From IMG/VR virus record IMGVR_UViG_3300020471_000893, positions 1-25,712 of that record: a DNA stretch of 25,712 nucleotides; one strand, 5' to 3'. The position numbers were made by a program, and so were the translations under genes. Below are positions 2,472 through 22,534 of the stretch, one piece after another. Within the stretch, counting starts at the first letter, position 1. Every line of letters begins with the position of its first letter. This DNA comes from a virus. The notes under the pieces are model-generated. The model was not told the origin of the DNA. It was given only the letters and a program-made list of their open reading frames with translations, and did no database searches.

Positions 2472-3614
2472 ATGACATTAGATGTGGAGTATCGAAATCC
2501 GTTAATTAATTCTATAAACAAAATAACTAAAATTGCAATTATTGGTAAAGGTACTGCGGGTTTATTAACAGCTGTACATTTTCTTAGATTTTATAATGAA
2601 TATAATTGTAATTTAGAAATTATATATGACCCTGATACTAATCATTTATTAGATATTGGTGAAAGTGTTAATGCTGCTGTACCTGCTCAGTTGTGGGGTA
2701 TAGGTATTGATATGAGTTATGCTGATAAGCTTGGCTTTACTCCTAAGTTTGGTATTAAATATAATGACTTTGGTAATAAAGATTTTATACATCCATTTCC
2801 TACTAATATAACATCACTACATATTGATAGTCATTTGTTTACTAAAGAGTTATTAAAGATATTAGAACAAAGAGGCGTTAAGATAACTGAAAAAAAAGTT
2901 ACAAATTACAATGATATAAATGCTGATTATGTTATTGATTGCAGTGGCTTTTCTAAAGATAAAGAAAAATTATCTCTTAGTCCATACATACCTGTTAATG
3001 CTGCAGTTATAACTTCTGAAAATACTATTAGTAATGATTATTATACTCATCATACAGCTATGCCTTATGGTTGGAAATGGCAGATACCTTTGCTAGATAG
3101 AATATCTTATGGTCATTTATACAACAAAGACATAGATACACCAGATATACAAGGAAAAGTAATAGAGTTTGATAGTTATTACAGAGAAGAAATGTTTGAT
3201 GGAAGAGTATTACACAATGGATTAAATGGATTTTTTTTAGAACCTATGGAAGGTACAGCTTTAACAGTTACTGAAAATATTAATAGACATCTTACAGACC
3301 ATTTAATATATGATACAAATGTAGAACAAATTAATGAAAGTATTGTTAGACACATTAAAGAAGTAGAAACAACTATAGTAATGCATTACCTTAAAGGTAG
3401 TAAATACAATACTCCATTCTGGAATTTAGCTCAAGATATGGCAATAGCTAATTTTAAAACAATTGGTGATGAATTAAAAAATGCAGTTATAGCACATTAT
3501 GTTGATGATTGTAAATGTAATGATAAAGCAGATTCTTATGGATATGGTTTGTGGGATTATAATAGTTTAAGATATAACATAGAAGGATTAGAAATAACTT
3601 TATCTGATATATAA
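2472..3614 (+). CDS. FAD-dependent halogenase (tryptophan-halogenase family)
   Basis: 380 residues. The family uses FADH2 from a separate reductase, oxygen and halide to make HOX, which is passed to a catalytic Lys. Visible signatures: FAD-binding GKGTAG (residues 25-30); IGES (62-65), equivalent to the IGVGEA region; PKFGIK with K92 aligned to the catalytic Lys79 of PrnA; IDCSG (155-159); the diagnostic GWxWxIP (200-206); FLEPME with E257 aligned to PrnA Glu346; and NTPFW (313-317). All key residues are present, so an active enzyme is plausible. It is about 150 residues shorter than PrnA, so substrate-pocket elements are reduced. The characterised cyanophage halogenase VirX1 is the closest known precedent. 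It sits between tail genes and lysis genes; no flavin reductase is visible in the window. Confidence 0.9.
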   Translation: MTLDVEYRNPLINSINKITKIAIIGKGTAGLLTAVHFLRFYNEYNCNLEIIYDPDTNHLLDIGESVNAAVPAQLWGIGIDMSYADKLGFTPKFGIKYNDFGNKDFIHPFPTNITSLHIDSHLFTKELLKILEQRGVKITEKKVTNYNDINADYVIDCSGFSKDKEKLSLSPYIPVNAAVITSENTISNDYYTHHTAMPYGWKWQIPLLDRISYGHLYNKDIDTPDIQGKVIEFDSYYREEMFDGRVLHNGLNGFFLEPMEGTALTVTENINRHLTDHLIYDTNVEQINESIVRHIKEVETTIVMHYLKGSKYNTPFWNLAQDMAIANFKTIGDELKNAVIAHYVDDCKCNDKADSYGYGLWDYNSLRYNIEGLEITLSDI

Positions 3615-13472: not shown

Positions 13473-14528
13473 CTATACATCATCTAATTTTACCAAGTAT
13501 TCTGCTGTCACGCCAGTACCTGGCTTACAAAATAACAACCATTGACATGGTCGTCCCATACTTGCTAACTGTTCTAATGCATATGTATTGTAGCTTTCTG
13601 TACTTCCATTAACCCATAACCTTATATCATTAAGATACATAGTTGTTGGTGTATGAAAGTGGCCAGCAATTGCGTAATCAAAGTCAGGCATTAAACCATT
13701 TGCAGCTAATGTTTTCCAACCTTGTAGCTTTTTACCAAACCCGTACCAAGGAAAGCCACTAAATCCTCGTACGTTATCGCCATGCCAGATAAAAAACTTA
13801 CATTTCTTACCCAGATTGGCTATGTCGAACCAATGGTTATCGCCTGTACTATCAGGTATAGTCCATTTAATTCTTTTTTCGTCTCTATATATCATTGACA
13901 TTATGCTTCCTAGCATTCTGTCAGCGTTAGAATCTGGATGGTAATCTTTTCTATTACGTCCACCCAAGTGTCCATGGTTTCCTATAACCCAATGAACATC
14001 TACTTCTTCAAAGTTAGCTAACAATATGTCAAAAAATTTTGTCATAATTCTAGGACCGTCTAATGTCACTTGTTTATATAGACTTGAATCTATTAAATGT
14101 GTTTGTCCCGGAAAAATTAGCTCACCTTCTATAATGTCGCCTGCTGCAAATACTGCAACCTTGCGTATAGGATGTGCTTTACGCTGTATGTTGGCCAGTT
14201 CGACCACTTTCTTAGCATACGCTACAACTCGTCTCTCAGCTACCTCTGTGTTGTATTCAGGGGTAATTTTAGCTAATTGTATGTCACTAAGTACAGCTAT
14301 AGCTATCTCTTCGTTCTTAGTTTTCTTAGAACTAATAGGTTTAGGAACTTTTGGTTTGTTCCATAAGTTTAAATTAGTTTGTACAGCACTATATACAGCG
14401 TCAATTAAATCTTCTTTACGATTCTTAGCTTTATCTAGTTGCTTAAGTAATTTAAGGTTATCCTTTTTTAGTTCTTGTATCTGTTTGCTTTCAGCTTCAG
14501 CTAATAGGTCGTCTATACTTTTACTCAT
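13473..14528 (-). CDS. Metallophosphoesterase with N-terminal coiled coil (SbcD/Mre11-like)
   Basis: 351 residues. Residues 10-45 are a charged coiled coil. The catalytic domain shows the calcineurin-like motifs in order: SDIQ (81-84, so DxQ where DxH is usual), GDIIEGE (130-136), GNHGH (183-187, where GNHE/D is usual), WHGDN (248-252) and GHFHT (289-293). The two metal sites look intact except for the first His-to-Gln change, which is also seen in some phage members. Function is most likely DNA end processing next to the Rad52-like annealing protein; a phosphodiesterase of another kind cannot be ruled out. The start overlaps the upstream HTH gene by 8 nt. Confidence 0.82.
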   Translation of the reverse strand: MSKSIDDLLAEAESKQIQELKKDNLKLLKQLDKAKNRKEDLIDAVYSAVQTNLNLWNKPKVPKPISSKKTKNEEIAIAVLSDIQLAKITPEYNTEVAERRVVAYAKKVVELANIQRKAHPIRKVAVFAAGDIIEGELIFPGQTHLIDSSLYKQVTLDGPRIMTKFFDILLANFEEVDVHWVIGNHGHLGGRNRKDYHPDSNADRMLGSIMSMIYRDEKRIKWTIPDSTGDNHWFDIANLGKKCKFFIWHGDNVRGFSGFPWYGFGKKLQGWKTLAANGLMPDFDYAIAGHFHTPTTMYLNDIRLWVNGSTESYNTYALEQLASMGRPCQWLLFCKPGTGVTAEYLVKLDDV

Positions 14529-14760
14529 TAGATGTCTCCAATTTTTTAAGATACTTTCTAATAGCTGATTCAGATATCTGTATATTAAAGTGTTCGTCTA
14601 GTAACCTATGTACTACATATGGTTTCATAACTACACCGTCCTTTACCCTGTCCTTTAAAGCAATCCAAAAAGGCATAGCGTCTTTTGTTATTTTACTTTC
14701 AACAAAATGTGCTCCACGTTTACCTTCACTGGCTTCCTTTAATAATTGTTCTATGTCCAT
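14521..14760 (-). CDS. Small helical DNA-binding-like protein
   Basis: 79 residues. The C-terminal half (YVVHRLLDEHFNIQISESAIRKYLKKL) has the form of a helix-turn-helix with a recognition helix SESAIRKYLKKL. The first half is a charged helix. It could be a regulator or a replication-initiation helper. No ribosome site lies in front of ATG 14760, and a weak promoter (TTGAAG at 14794-14789, TATTAT at 14773-14768, minus strand, 15-nt spacer) would give a nearly leaderless mRNA. The gene follows the repeat-rich gap 14761-15194, a candidate control region for it. Confidence 0.6.
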   Translation of the reverse strand: MDIEQLLKEASEGKRGAHFVESKITKDAMPFWIALKDRVKDGVVMKPYVVHRLLDEHFNIQISESAIRKYLKKLETSNE

Positions 14761-14812
14761 ATAAATGATAATAACAGAAAAAAAACGTCTTCAAGTTATT
14801 AAAAAAGAATAT

Positions 14813-14867
14813 AAACCTTTCCTTAGCTTTCCACACCGGACAGCACCTAAGCACAGCTTTCCGCTGC
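14813..14867 (-). repeat. Pentamer array A (11 units)
   Basis: Eleven consecutive 5-nt units fit plus-strand NNWSC, for example AAACC TTTCC TTAGC at the left and TTTCC GCTGC at the right. One unit (GGACA, 14838-14842) breaks the final C. On the minus strand, the direction of local transcription, each unit is G(G/C)(A/T)NN. Confidence 0.7.
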
Positions 14868-14891
14868 ATAATGAAATCTTGAAATTTTTTT

Positions 14892-14946
14892 AGGCCTCAC
14901 CTTTCCGCACCGAACCCGACCTTAGCCCTGCTAACCAAGCCGAAGC
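14892..14946 (-). repeat. Pentamer array B (11 units)
   Basis: Eleven units of NNWSC, for example GCACC GAACC CGACC. The fifth base is C in all 11 and the fourth is G or C in all 11; the third is G in two units. It lies 24 nt from array A, and its right end forms part of the hairpin 14932-15004. Confidence 0.7.
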
Positions 14947-15004
14947 GGAGTACCTTGTAACACACTTTATATATTACAAGCTACTCCGTAGGTCTGTTTG
15001 GTTA
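14932..15004 (-). other. Long hairpin at the edge of array B
   Basis: Nested perfect arms: TAACCAA/TTGGTTA (14932-14938, 14998-15004), CGGAGTA/TACTCCG (14946-14952, 14982-14988) and TTGTAA/TTACAA (14955-14960, 14974-14979), with a 13-nt AT-rich loop. The two inner stems are separated by symmetric 2-nt internal loops. It is likely a folded RNA or cruciform element. Confidence 0.6.
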
Positions 15005-15194: not shown

Positions 15195-16739
15195 TTATTG
15201 TAGCTGATTTATCTCCAATGCAAAGCGTTTAACTTCATTGATATCAGCCAACCTTGTAATGTTGTGTTTCTTTAACTTTTGTTGACAATCTTTAAGTAGG
15301 TTTACAGAGTTATCTTGTCTTCTACCAAATACGTACATATCTGATACCCATATTCTAGCTGGTGGTTGTTTACCTAACCAATCTAATGCTGGTCCGTCAA
15401 CTAAATTACCACCACCTGAATGTGTATCTAGGTATTCTTGTGTTACACGCTTACCACCTTCTGCGATAATACGTAATACACCTACGTCCCACCTAGATTG
15501 TCCGTCTACAAGTGGTCCGTCATATCTGTCATTGTACATAGCTATAGTTACAGCTGGTAGTTCTGACATTATATCTAGTATATCTTGACCACTAAAGTTC
15601 ATTGAACCTGATGCGTCAATTAATATTGTTCCACCATAAGTTCTTTGCTTTTGTTTGAATATCTTTTTATCAATACAATATCTACTAATGTATTTAGGAT
15701 TAGTCCCGTAATCCATAGGTCTATATTCACGACCTTTCTTAAGTAGTGATTGTAGGTTCACTTGAAGTGGACCTTTAATTTCTTTCATAATACCCCAAGC
15801 ACCTGAGTAATCAGCTGTTGGATTGTAATTCATGTTACCCATGTTTTGCATAAGTTCCATTTTGGTATTATATTGTGCTTCAGCTAAAGTTTGTGCACTT
15901 TCGCCTTCACCTTCGCCTTCACCACTATTACCGTCATCCATATTTGCATAACTAGACTTTGATTTCTTCGCAGCTTCCGCCTTACGACGTTCTGCTTCAT
16001 ATACTTCTTCTAATTCTGGTACGTCGCTAAAGTCTTCATACAATGCATGTAGTTCTTTAGCTACTTGTCTAACTTTACGATATGTAGGTTTGTAATACCT
16101 ATCACCACCATATGAATTTCTATTTTTAGTAGTAATTCTTTTATAGAACCATTGTGCTTTACTTATAGCAAAGTTGATTTGCATTTTACGTAATGTTGTC
16201 AATAAACTATGTCCGTTTTCAGTTCTTTCTTTAAGTTCTTCAACGGTGTCAAGTAATGCACGCCATTCTAAATTGTTAGGTTGTGTGTCACCGTATGTTT
16301 CCATACCTGTAGAATTCCACATGCTAGCCATCATATAACATATCATGTCGTACTCTGACCAAGATAAAAGCATATCTTCATATCGTTTACGTGCGTCTTT
16401 TTCACACATAATCCAATCATTAATAGGTAGTTTACGTTGTGATAATAAGTAACCTATACGTACTTCTTCACAAGCTTCTACTGAAGTTTCGCCTTCATTT
16501 GGACCAAGTTTACCTATAGTTTTAGGTGACCATTTAACATGACCCATTTCATGACGTCTTACCATTCTGTCATGATAAGAATCACAATCTTCACATTTGT
16601 CGCCTAAAGGTACATACATTTCCTTTGATAAGTTACTTGTACGTGGTAGTTTGTTATCTTCAAAGACTTTCCAAGCACCGTCGCCTGTAACTATTGCAGG
16701 AAATGGTAGTTTTTGTTTATGTTTAGGTGTTCGTTTCAT
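15195..16739 (-). CDS. VWA-domain protein with metallopeptidase-like HEMGH motif (CobT/DUF2201-like)
   Basis: 514 residues. The N-terminal part has CEDC (49-52) and HEMGH (63-67), a zincin-type HExxH motif, with acidic residues EACEEVR (88-94) that could supply a third ligand. Residues about 225-290 are charged and low-complexity (SGEGEGEGES). The C-terminal VWA domain has an intact MIDAS start, DASGS (375-379), after GGTILI, and VSDMYV later. The gene overlaps the AAA+ gene by 17 nt; such MoxR/CobS-type ATPase plus VWA pairs act as chaperone-like remodelling machines (cobalt chelatase being the best known). In a phage the target is unknown, and the possible protease site is notable. GGAG lies 7 nt before ATG. 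Confidence 0.82.
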   Translation of the reverse strand: MKRTPKHKQKLPFPAIVTGDGAWKVFEDNKLPRTSNLSKEMYVPLGDKCEDCDSYHDRMVRRHEMGHVKWSPKTIGKLGPNEGETSVEACEEVRIGYLLSQRKLPINDWIMCEKDARKRYEDMLLSWSEYDMICYMMASMWNSTGMETYGDTQPNNLEWRALLDTVEELKERTENGHSLLTTLRKMQINFAISKAQWFYKRITTKNRNSYGGDRYYKPTYRKVRQVAKELHALYEDFSDVPELEEVYEAERRKAEAAKKSKSSYANMDDGNSGEGEGEGESAQTLAEAQYNTKMELMQNMGNMNYNPTADYSGAWGIMKEIKGPLQVNLQSLLKKGREYRPMDYGTNPKYISRYCIDKKIFKQKQRTYGGTILIDASGSMNFSGQDILDIMSELPAVTIAMYNDRYDGPLVDGQSRWDVGVLRIIAEGGKRVTQEYLDTHSGGGNLVDGPALDWLGKQPPARIWVSDMYVFGRRQDNSVNLLKDCQQKLKKHNITRLADINEVKRFALEINQLQ

Positions 16740-17478
16740 TATTAAGCTCCATATTGTTTAAGTTTTTGTCATCAACTTCGTCTGATAATATGATTGCGTC
16801 TAATAATTCATCAGCTCTATCTCCAAAGATAAGGTTAGCTGCAGTCTCTTTATCAAGACCTTTACCTATAAGTTCAAAGAACTCACGCCAAGCTCTAATA
16901 GATAGCCTAGTGTCCATATCTTCTGATAAAGATGTTTCTACAATGATACTTCTCCAAGCCTCTGGAAACATTTCCAAAGCTTTAGGATGTATTTCATTGA
17001 CGTTAATTTTGACAGGGAACCTATCTTTAAGGGCCATAGGTAAGCTCTCAGGTAGAGAGTTTGTAGTTGCTATGACTGTAAATCCTTCAGCTGGTCTTAC
17101 AGTTTCCTTATTGTCGTTGTTCAATGTCAATTGTGCAATGTCTTTGTCATCTAATATAGCGTGCAAGAATGTCATTGCGTCTGGTGATGCGTGGTCAATT
17201 TCGTTAACTACTAACCTACCACCATTACGCCATGCTTGTATTGCTATACCGTCATGCCATTCAAATCCACCGTCTGAACTTGGTTTATAGAAACCTTCCA
17301 AGTTAGCTGACGCTGTATCTTCCGTCATTGTTATTTGATATACATTTGGTTCACCTTCCATTGTGTAACCAATTGCATTTGTTGCAGCTGCATATGTTTT
17401 ACCTGTACCCGGTGGGCCGTATAACAATATTCTGTCTGCATTTCCAATAGCATTTGCTACTAATTTCCAACAATCCAT
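16723..17478 (-). CDS. AAA+ ATPase, MoxR/CobS-like
   Basis: 251 residues with Walker A GPPGTGKT (21-28), a Walker B-like strand RLVVNEID (88-95, with N where the first acidic residue is usual and E93 kept), sensor 1 VIATTNS and an arginine-finger region LKDRFPVKI. The MoxR-type insertion (NLEGFYKPSSDGGFEWHDG) is also present. It would hydrolyse ATP to drive remodelling by the partner VWA protein encoded by the overlapping downstream gene. ATG overlaps the previous stop (GGAGAATAATG). The short form (about 250 residues) lacks extra domains. Confidence 0.85.
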   Translation of the reverse strand: MDCWKLVANAIGNADRILLYGPPGTGKTYAAATNAIGYTMEGEPNVYQITMTEDTASANLEGFYKPSSDGGFEWHDGIAIQAWRNGGRLVVNEIDHASPDAMTFLHAILDDKDIAQLTLNNDNKETVRPAEGFTVIATTNSLPESLPMALKDRFPVKINVNEIHPKALEMFPEAWRSIIVETSLSEDMDTRLSIRAWREFFELIGKGLDKETAANLIFGDRADELLDAIILSDEVDDKNLNNMELNNETNT

Positions 17479-18408: not shown

Positions 18409-19179
18409 TTAGAGATGCTTACGCAACTCAAGCCAAGTATCAACTAGCTTATCCATTTCTTTCTTAAGAACTGGTAGCTCTTTGAAATTGACATATGCAT
18501 TTGCCTTAAAGAACATGATAAGCAAACGAACATAAGTAGTAGGACTTTGTCCTATCCATTTCTTGTTCAGGTTTTCTTGAGCCTTCGTGACTGTCTTATT
18601 TAATTTAAGATGTCCAAGACCTTTCTTTAAGGGTACTGCAGTACCTTTAGTAGAAGTACCAAAGTTCTTTATGATACTTTGTACTTTCTTTTCAGGCTTA
18701 TTAATATCCATAGATATTATTGTCATTGACATACCTAATTCATCTGCTGTCTTGACATATTGTTTGATTTCAATAGCTGAATAAGGTAAACCATGTTCCA
18801 TGTTGTGGATAAATGATTGTCTTATTGCTTCTTTATCATCTTTTGTCTCTAGATATCTAACAGGTATCTGTTTGTTACCTAGTTGTCTAGCAGCTTCGTA
18901 TCTATGCCAACCGTCTAGTATTCTCCCTGTTGGTTTACCCTTTCTAGACTCAACTATAATTGCAGGAAATACGTCGCCATTTCTCATAGCGTCTTTGTAG
19001 ATATTTACTCTATTACTTTGCAACATAGTTCTAGGGTATATTGTTTCGTCGCATTCAAGCGAACTTAAATTAGTAAGCTCATCAGCTCCAGATGCTTTAA
19101 CAAGTTTAGCTTTATTAGCCATAACTTTATTAGCTACCTTTTGCTTTCGTTCCTTACTAAGTTTTTCAGCAGTAGTCAT
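18409..19179 (-). CDS. ParB-like nuclease-domain protein
   Basis: 256 residues, ATG in a TAATG overlap with AAAGGAG upstream. The ParB/sulfiredoxin-type fold is shown by DVFPAIIVESRKGKPTGRILDGWHRYEAARQLG (69-101 region) with the core LDGWHRYEAA (88-97) and PVRYLET. After it come helices (YSAIEIKQYVKTADELGMSM) that resemble the ParB HTH region, then a basic C-terminal half. In phages such proteins serve in transcription regulation, DNA nicking or segregation; which applies here cannot be told. It is coupled to the upstream unknown gene. Confidence 0.75.
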   Translation of the reverse strand: MTTAEKLSKERKQKVANKVMANKAKLVKASGADELTNLSSLECDETIYPRTMLQSNRVNIYKDAMRNGDVFPAIIVESRKGKPTGRILDGWHRYEAARQLGNKQIPVRYLETKDDKEAIRQSFIHNMEHGLPYSAIEIKQYVKTADELGMSMTIISMDINKPEKKVQSIIKNFGTSTKGTAVPLKKGLGHLKLNKTVTKAQENLNKKWIGQSPTTYVRLLIMFFKANAYVNFKELPVLKKEMDKLVDTWLELRKHL

Positions 19180-19793
19180 TAACTCTCCTTTGCGTTAGTT
19201 ACGTCGAATCTACCGAATGAACCACCTTTTTGTGGTCTATAGTCTCCAATGCCTTGTTTCTTACCTGCGTCGCTAACTACTTTCGTAAGCACATCAAGTA
19301 CTGATGTTCCTTGCAATGAATTCTCCATTAATTCTCTGTCAACTTCGACACTAAATGTTAGTTTCCATTGGGGAACAACTGGTCTAGCACGCATAACACC
19401 TGCACGTGAGACAACTACTCTACGTTTATCAATGTTATATGATTTAATAGGTCGATTAGACATAGATTTAAGTTCTAAACTATCAACTGGTTCAATCATT
19501 AAGTGATTAAGTAGAGTCTTTAAGTTAGTTCTACCTAACTTAAAAGCTTTAGATGCTTCTAATATAGAAGCTCTGATTTGTGCTGATGGAACAACTAAGT
19601 TACCTTTGTCATTCCTATATGTTCTCATTTCAGCCTCATCCTCATCGTTGTACTTTTTAGTACTACGTGTTTGTGTGACTTCGCCTGAATTCGCACCCAT
19701 CATAGATGGATTATTGAACATAACACCAGGCTCTTTACCTTGTATTTCAAACGTATATACATCAACTGGTGATGTAAATGTGAGTTTTGCCAA
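19179..19793 (-). CDS. Unknown conserved-looking phage protein
   Basis: 204 residues from TTG 19793, chosen because AAAGGAGAT lies just upstream; longer in-frame readings run into the tRNA-like element. The sequence mixes beta strands and basic helices (SAQIRASILEASKAFKLGR, RARPVVPQWKLTFSVEVD) and ends with the glycine-rich signature GIGDYRPQKGGSFGRFDV. A similar G-rich close is seen in RAMP-like folds, but that is too weak for a call. It is followed by the ParB-like gene through TAATG coupling. Confidence 0.65.
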   Translation of the reverse strand: MAKLTFTSPVDVYTFEIQGKEPGVMFNNPSMMGANSGEVTQTRSTKKYNDEDEAEMRTYRNDKGNLVVPSAQIRASILEASKAFKLGRTNLKTLLNHLMIEPVDSLELKSMSNRPIKSYNIDKRRVVVSRAGVMRARPVVPQWKLTFSVEVDRELMENSLQGTSVLDVLTKVVSDAGKKQGIGDYRPQKGGSFGRFDVTNAKES

Positions 19794-19832: not shown

Positions 19833-19905
19833 TGGACGTGCTGGGAATTGAACCCAGGTATATAGCACTTCAAAGGGGAAATTCTATATCTGACCTATCA
19901 CGCCC
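19833..19905 (-). tRNA. tRNA-like element with abnormal anticodon arm
   Basis: 73 nt on the minus strand. Acceptor arms GGGCGTG (19905-19899) and CACGTCC pair over all 7 positions (one G-U), with discriminator A. The T arm CTGGG-TTCAATT-CCCAG is perfect, with a canonical GTTCAAT loop. The central 39 nt has tRNA length, but I cannot build a 5-bp anticodon stem around a 7-nt loop. CTTTGAA resembles an anticodon loop (UUG), yet its flanks do not pair. Instead ATATAG pairs with CTATAT to give one long central hairpin. It is therefore a degenerate tRNA or a tRNA mimic. CCA is not encoded after the discriminator as usual. It abuts pentamer array D and precedes a TTG-start gene. Confidence 0.6.
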
Positions 19906-19906
19906 G

Positions 19907-19966
19907 TAACCTTACCAAGCCATTGCAAAGCGAACCTAACCTGACCCCAGCTATCCTGTGCGTACC
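19907..19966 (-). repeat. Pentamer array D (12 units)
   Basis: Twelve units of plus-strand NNWSC, for example GAACC TAACC TGACC. The fifth base is C in 12/12, the fourth is G/C in 12/12, and the third is A/T in 11/12. It is one base away from the tRNA-like element. Confidence 0.75.
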
Positions 19967-20080
19967 AAGTTAAATCTATATACTCAAGCAATGTATAAGT
20001 GAATAAAGGAAGTAATCCACTCTCCCTACTTACTATTTCTTTTCATCTCGTAAGCACCTATACATTGCGTTCAATATATA

Positions 20081-20145
20081 GTGCCTTACCTAACCGATGC
20101 TCTCCGCTCCGATGCCGACCATACCTTATCATACCGCTGCCCAGC
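20081..20145 (-). repeat. Pentamer array E (13 units)
   Basis: Thirteen units, for example GATGC TCTCC GCTCC. The fifth base is C in 13/13, the fourth is G/C in 12/13, and the third is A/T in 12/13. It begins within a few bases of the T tract of the upstream terminator on the minus strand. Confidence 0.75.
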
Positions 20146-20150
20146 ATAGT

Positions 20151-20216
20151 AAAAAAAATGGTAGTGTTTTCGGTAAGTACAACAGGGCTATGAAATACCT
20201 CTTACTCACACTACCA
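20151..20216 (-). terminator. Rho-independent-type terminator
   Basis: On the minus strand a 9-bp stem TGGTAGTGT/ACACTACCA (20216-20208 with 20167-20159), holding an inner GTAAG/CTTAC pairing, is followed directly by eight T. It ends the transcript of the genes at 20221-20521. Confidence 0.75.
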
Positions 20217-22450: not shown

Positions 22451-22482
22451 TTTATCTCTCCTTTTTATTATTGAAAAAACAT

Positions 22483-22524
22483 ACTATATGTAGCATATCT
22501 ATTGCTAGACATACTACATATAGT
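22483..22524 (-). promoter_or_regulatory. 11-bp inverted repeat in leader
   Basis: ACTATATGTAG (22483-22493) and CTACATATAGT (22514-22524) are perfect complements with a 20-nt loop, 20-30 nt before the ribosome site of the TTG-start gene at 22450. It is a hairpin or operator. Confidence 0.5.
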
Positions 22525-22534
22525 GCTAGTTCTC

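Follow-up and report, generated by a model that had tools for sequence, protein, structure and literature searches.

A 25.7-kb viral record from IMG/VR (the window; G+C 35.5%) carries on its minus strand a 73-nt tRNA-like RNA, running 5' to 3' from 19905 to 19833, which is very probably a TLD-only tmRNA, that is, a tmRNA without a coding region. Of tmRNA, which rescues stalled ribosomes in bacteria, it would have the tRNA-like domain (TLD) and lack the part that codes for the tag. Its TLD is unpermuted, its P2 arm is short and closed, and it lies in a phage genome, which places it with the RNA of mycobacteriophage DS6A. The DS6A RNA has already been published, so the kind is known; what is unexpected is how common these mini-tmRNAs are and how uniformly chargeable they look. 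Existing records appear to understate their frequency greatly, and most go without annotation. The phage RNA probably competes with host tmRNA and dampens trans-translation during infection. The parts of the locus are as follows.

19833 to 19905, minus strand: the very probable TLD-only (mini) tmRNA, 73 nt (tmRNA model RF00023, covariance model R1, fold, 10 related viral loci).
19899 to 19905, minus strand: 5' strand of the acceptor stem, GGGCGUG, carrying G3 of G3:U70 (RNAfold).
19890 to 19898, minus strand: D-loop-like unpaired stretch AUAGGUCAG, without a D stem, GG conserved (fold and alignment with relatives).
19860 to 19889, minus strand: P2-like hairpin of 6 + 5 bp with loop CCCCUU, replacing the coding and pseudoknot part of tmRNA (RNAfold; P2 covariation across mini-tmRNAs).
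19841 to 19857, minus strand: T arm CUGGG-UUCAAUU-CCCAG (RNAfold).
19833 to 19840, minus strand: 3' strand of the acceptor stem, CACGUCC, with U70, and the discriminator A73 (sequence and fold).
19906 to 19966, minus strand: pentamer array D, G(G/C)NNN repeated 12 times plus one base, a lineage-specific spacer (5-nt period of G).
19970 to 20090, minus strand: conserved structured RNA domain upstream of the mini-tmRNA, whose helix of some 25 bp bears apical hairpins (8 homologues).
20076 to 20140, minus strand: pentamer array C, which shares a few positions with the beginning of the structured domain (5-nt period of G; 0 of 20000 shuffles).
19179 to 19793, minus strand: downstream gene of unknown function, phrog_4652, with a TTG start and the ribosome-binding site AAAGGAG.

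RNAfold gave the 73-nt RNA three paired elements, namely an acceptor stem of 7 bp, a T stem of 5 bp and a single long hairpin (−24.5 kcal/mol, z −2.76; none of 200 shuffles as good), and neither a D stem nor an anticodon arm formed. The plus strand at 19833 to 19905 folded unremarkably (z −0.15). An initial annotation had described here a 73-nt element whose acceptor stem (7 bp) and T arm are those of a tRNA but in which no anticodon stem forms, an AUAUAG/CUAUAU hairpin replacing the D and anticodon arms. The fold bears this out and extends the stem of the hairpin by five further pairs. That description was right in location and fold; it did not state the minus strand outright, and it missed G3:U70 and the GG of the D-loop. 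Both belong to the features of a tmRNA TLD found in this RNA: the acceptor stem with G3:U70, which is a wobble pair, and A73 (sequence and fold), a D-loop without a D stem whose GG faces the T-loop (fold and alignment), and a canonical 5-bp T arm with the loop UUCRANY. The UUCGAC of the tmRNA D-loop is not conserved in the window's phage group and is lost in the window RNA; the D-loop-like stretch of relatives reads AAAGG, AUUGG or CAGG. CCA is not encoded at the 3' end.

Neither a tag frame nor a stop, as in an mRNA-like region, was present in the window RNA, in which just 30 nt (the P2 arm) separate the D-loop from the T arm. Short frames in the upstream domain were inspected by eye as a hidden tag and rejected: they are not kept between relatives, the one in the window meets a stop at codon 7, and the others are without a start. 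A two-piece or permuted tmRNA was ruled out, since the order is D-loop and then T arm, not the reverse. Pairing of the loop CCCCUUU with the downstream ribosome-binding site was also considered and dropped, as it is not kept in one relative, L005.

ARAGORN called neither a tRNA nor a tmRNA at the element, and a canonical cloverleaf, which the initial annotation had named as the finding that would count against it, was found by neither RNAfold nor ARAGORN. The Rfam tRNA model (RF00005) gave 14.6 bits, below its cut-off of 29. The Rfam tmRNA model (RF00023) matched the element at 32 bits (E 1.5e-9), below its cut-off of 47 and with only the model's two ends aligned. Among close relatives, L177 scored 52.4 bits with RF00023, above the cut-off, while L028 (41 bits), L047 (40 bits) and L183 lay within 40 to 43, so the same element passes or nearly passes as a tmRNA in these loci. 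We also built a covariance model (R1) from 20 phage mini-tmRNAs, none of them from the window's phage group. R1 found all relatives of the element. With filters off, it scored the element itself at 35 bits (E 4.6e-7) and nothing else in the window above 9.5 bits, which leaves a single credible match there. In tRNA-rich phage genomes the best other R1 matches, not identified one by one, reached 32.7 bits, so the membership of the window RNA leans on the relatives that bridge it to the other mini-tmRNAs.

Relatives were gathered through the downstream gene, a MoxR-like gene and a search for the element's 3' end; blastn of the window region against cultured phages gave no match. The element was found in ten further carriers (L002 to L005, L028, L047 (and L048), L177/L178/L180 and L183), among which the acceptor stem and the hairpin covary. 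L177 and L183 have different acceptor and T stems with the pairing retained, and their hairpin is unrelated in sequence but long. No smpB gene was found in 16 records. The MoxR-like AAA ATPase gene is followed by one for a 514-aa protein, maybe its von Willebrand-type partner (15195 to 17478, minus strand); of 25 related viral loci, almost all have the ATPase at 68 to 97% identity. Elsewhere in the window lie a tryptophan halogenase-like gene (2472 to 3614, plus strand; phrog_2928, E 3e-62) and, at 22474 to 22531 on the minus strand, a terminator-like element in which a long near-perfect hairpin, ACTATATGTAGTATGTCTA / TAGATATGCTACATATAGT, is followed by a T-rich stretch.

The initial annotation had joined the element directly to a pentamer array. 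One base (C, 19906) does separate the two, and the array is real: the 5-nt period of G is strongest in the window at 19967 to 19908 and 20142 to 20083, and none of 20000 composition shuffles was as strong. Array D is in register in L002 to L005 and absent in L028, L047, L177 and L183, which keep the mini-tmRNA. The array is thus a separable, lineage-specific insert rather than part of the tRNA-like element, and the junction is incidental. Array C shows indels of 10 to 15 nt between relatives, and a third G(G/C)NNN array of period 5 lies in non-coding sequence at 14808 to 14952 (minus strand), upstream of the gene at 14521 to 14760. The structured domain (about 110 nt) always stands just upstream of the mini-tmRNA in the window's group, including the four array-less loci. 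Of its 30 predicted pairs, 11 show compensatory changes across 8 homologues, and it matched no Rfam family. Further upstream, a hairpin motif, GTAAGA-n-CCCTGT-n-CYGAAA (20168 to 20205, minus strand; 0 expected by chance), is possibly a regulatory RNA and had no Rfam match; it was matched in 28 loci out of 206, which all belong to the window's phage group and include loci where the mini-tmRNA was not found. On the other side, the downstream gene starts 40 nt after the mini-tmRNA, and a Pfam scan of its protein found no family.

Another candidate is an attachment-site remnant, left by a phage that integrated at a tRNA or tmRNA gene of its host. The 3' end of ssrA does serve phages as attP; examples are found in Gordonia phage Yeezy and in Tsukamurella phage TPA4, where the 3' end only is present, beside an integrase. 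The 5' half of the window element is present and paired, and a tyrosine integrase (PF00589) was found in 0 of 12 records of the group, of which some may be fragments. In a comparison with 84,980 species genomes, the element's 3' end occurred in just six stretches; five or more of these are ordinary tRNA-Ala, and its 5' half accompanies none of the six. We therefore regard a remnant as very improbable.

To see how widely such RNAs occur, we searched viral contigs for a textbook tmRNA D-loop with a T arm within 20 to 50 nt and the acceptor stem unconstrained, which gave at least 120 matches. Tandem tRNA T arms among these were removed by demanding a paired acceptor, and at least 74 distinct mini-tmRNAs were left. 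At least 70 distinct mini-tmRNAs have the textbook tmRNA D-loop (UGGUUUCGAC). The typical form is 77 to 80 nt long, with the acceptor, UGGUUUCGAC, a P2 helix of 6 to 9 bp enclosing a small hairpin, the T arm and A73; a second, smaller group is 62 to 65 nt long. A 120-nt form (L032:1060-1179), whose D-loop is close to the textbook one and whose closed P2 arm is larger, stands between mini and full tmRNA. Among cultured phages, unannotated mini-tmRNAs were found in Stenotrophomonas virus Jojan60 (65 bits) and in three Streptomyces phages, BRock (66 bits), Riptide (50 bits) and Tomas (41 bits), the last two with diverged D-loops of the window type. The stretch AGGTTAGATATAG across D-loop and P2 is common to Riptide (L204:972-1048) and a viral contig (L003:4888-4960), possibly a convergent D-loop variant. 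ARAGORN missed nearly all mini-tmRNAs checked. Its sole call over one, a 324-nt tmRNA at L109:5905-6228 with the tag AWDYNPMWVQCSA in an unlikely frame, covers an 80-nt mini-tmRNA, and the long call is probably wrong. By comparison, no more than 9 unique sequences are classed as 'standard, no CDS' in the tmRNA database of 2025 (PMC11915505).

An ARAGORN tRNA lay within 200 nt of 19 of 86 aligned matches, on the same strand in 17 of the 19 and sometimes only 2 to 9 nt away. Such spacing in clusters would suit a tRNA mimic that draws RNase P and 3' tRNA nucleases to split a polycistronic transcript, the role that the initial annotation had offered. In the window the cut would fall between the structured RNA and the downstream gene, 40 nt before its start codon, and the excised piece would be functionless. 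An acceptor and T arm would suffice for that purpose, which leaves the conservation of G3:U70, the D-loop GG and the P2 arm unexplained; and in L028 and L047 the mini-tmRNA is followed by a terminator-like hairpin, not directly by a gene. The element is a tRNA mimic in substance, with the anatomy of a tmRNA TLD; a role as processing signal only, leaving the alanine identity pair without an explanation, is unlikely.

Selection on the structure was examined in an alignment of 86 matches, which is fitted to the model and so favours pairing somewhat: standard pairs fill 96.8% of pair cells, against 65% in shuffles, and the proportion drops to 42 to 55% in a control with slid partners. Both-sided, compensatory changes occur in 13 of 18 pairs, and the P2 pairs covary. 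The length of 73 nt and the unrecognisable anticodon might suggest a former phage tRNA that has lost its anticodon arm and is decaying, as the initial annotation had proposed. Relatives keep the pairing by compensatory change, G3:U70 and A73 are near-invariant, and the tmRNA model outscores the tRNA model. We reject a decayed tRNA on these grounds and give it hardly any weight.

After one row of the alignment, a tRNA-Phe (L076:4992-5059), was left out of the counts, G3:U70 was kept in 84 of 85 mini-tmRNAs and A73 in all 85, across 37 different acceptor stems in which pairs 4:69, 5:68 and 6:67 vary freely. G3:U70 and A73 are the classical identity of alanine acceptors, and the mini-tmRNAs thus look selected for alanylation. 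The sole exception, L183:5071-5143, belongs to the window's phage group and has A3:U70; it is a natural candidate for a non-alanylated form, and charging may therefore not be essential. Plain titration of SmpB would not require charging, and the strong conservation of the charging identity in these sequences suggests that charging matters. It also leaves room for a tag-less rescue, in which an Ala-charged mini-tmRNA enters the stalled ribosome with SmpB and accepts the nascent chain, and the ribosome is freed or trapped without a degradation tag; for the phage, the RNA would then be a substitute and not simply a titrator. Mitochondrial tmRNAs that carry no tag frame are believed to assist all the same, which would agree with such a role; the A3:U70 of L183 speaks against it, and we know of no release step without a stop codon. 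We consider tag-less rescue unlikely, if less so than a processing signal.

Competition with host tmRNA is the mechanism that we prefer. The analysis provides structure, homology, covariation, wide occurrence and G3:U70 conservation as its basis; from these we infer processing, charging and SmpB binding, and also the inhibitory role of the window RNA, to which we lean with some reserve. The mini-tmRNA would be contained in a longer minus-strand transcript, cut by host RNase P before 19905 and by 3' tRNA-maturation enzymes after 19833, and CCA would then be added. It appears to retain the features recognised by alanyl-tRNA synthetase (G3:U70 and A73), by EF-Tu (acceptor and T stem) and by SmpB (the elbow of T-loop and D-loop, without a D stem), and a predicted closed hairpin takes the place of the pseudoknots and tag frame of tmRNA. 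Host tmRNA would then have a rival for SmpB, for alanylation together with EF-Tu, and for the stalled ribosome, and trans-translation would be lowered. For mycobacteriophage DS6A, which has the published phage TLD-only tmRNA, PMC11915505 reports that the tmRNA of E. coli is inhibited by a molecule of similar kind, and this inhibitor is described as working whether or not it can be charged (attributed to Mao et al. 2009). If mini-tmRNAs do inhibit ribosome rescue, trans-translation would be a widespread battleground of phages and bacteria, and the conserved alanine identity pair raises the testable question of why a decoy should be charged. A bolder reading, which we put forward only tentatively, is that phages have commonly and convergently adopted tmRNAs without a coding region, in dozens of lineages, often in tRNA clusters and unannotated. 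On this view such RNAs act only when charged with alanine and, beyond titrating SmpB, go into the stalled ribosome during infection, where tagging is blocked or replaced.

Like the mitochondrial tag-less tmRNA (RF02544) and the plastid tmRNAs of Mallomonadaceae (about 65 bp), the window RNA is without a coding region; those RNAs are organellar, however, and the mitochondrial ones are usually permuted. Many mini-tmRNAs lie inside phage tRNA clusters on the same strand, and they differ from the cluster tRNAs in having no anticodon arm; the window phage's contig itself has no tRNA genes. With the standard one-piece tmRNA (ssrA, RF00023) the window RNA shares the G3:U70 acceptor, A73, the D-loop without a D stem, the T arm and a P2-like helix, whereas it is without the mRNA-like region, resume codon, tag and pseudoknots, at 73 nt against the 374 positions of the model. 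Compared with the DS6A RNA as described, it is AU-rich, its D-loop (AUAGGUCAG) has diverged, and a pentamer array and a conserved structured RNA precede it. Like the DS6A RNA, as characterised in PMC4131195 and PMC11915505, it is phage-encoded and has no tag frame and little beyond the TLD of tmRNA.
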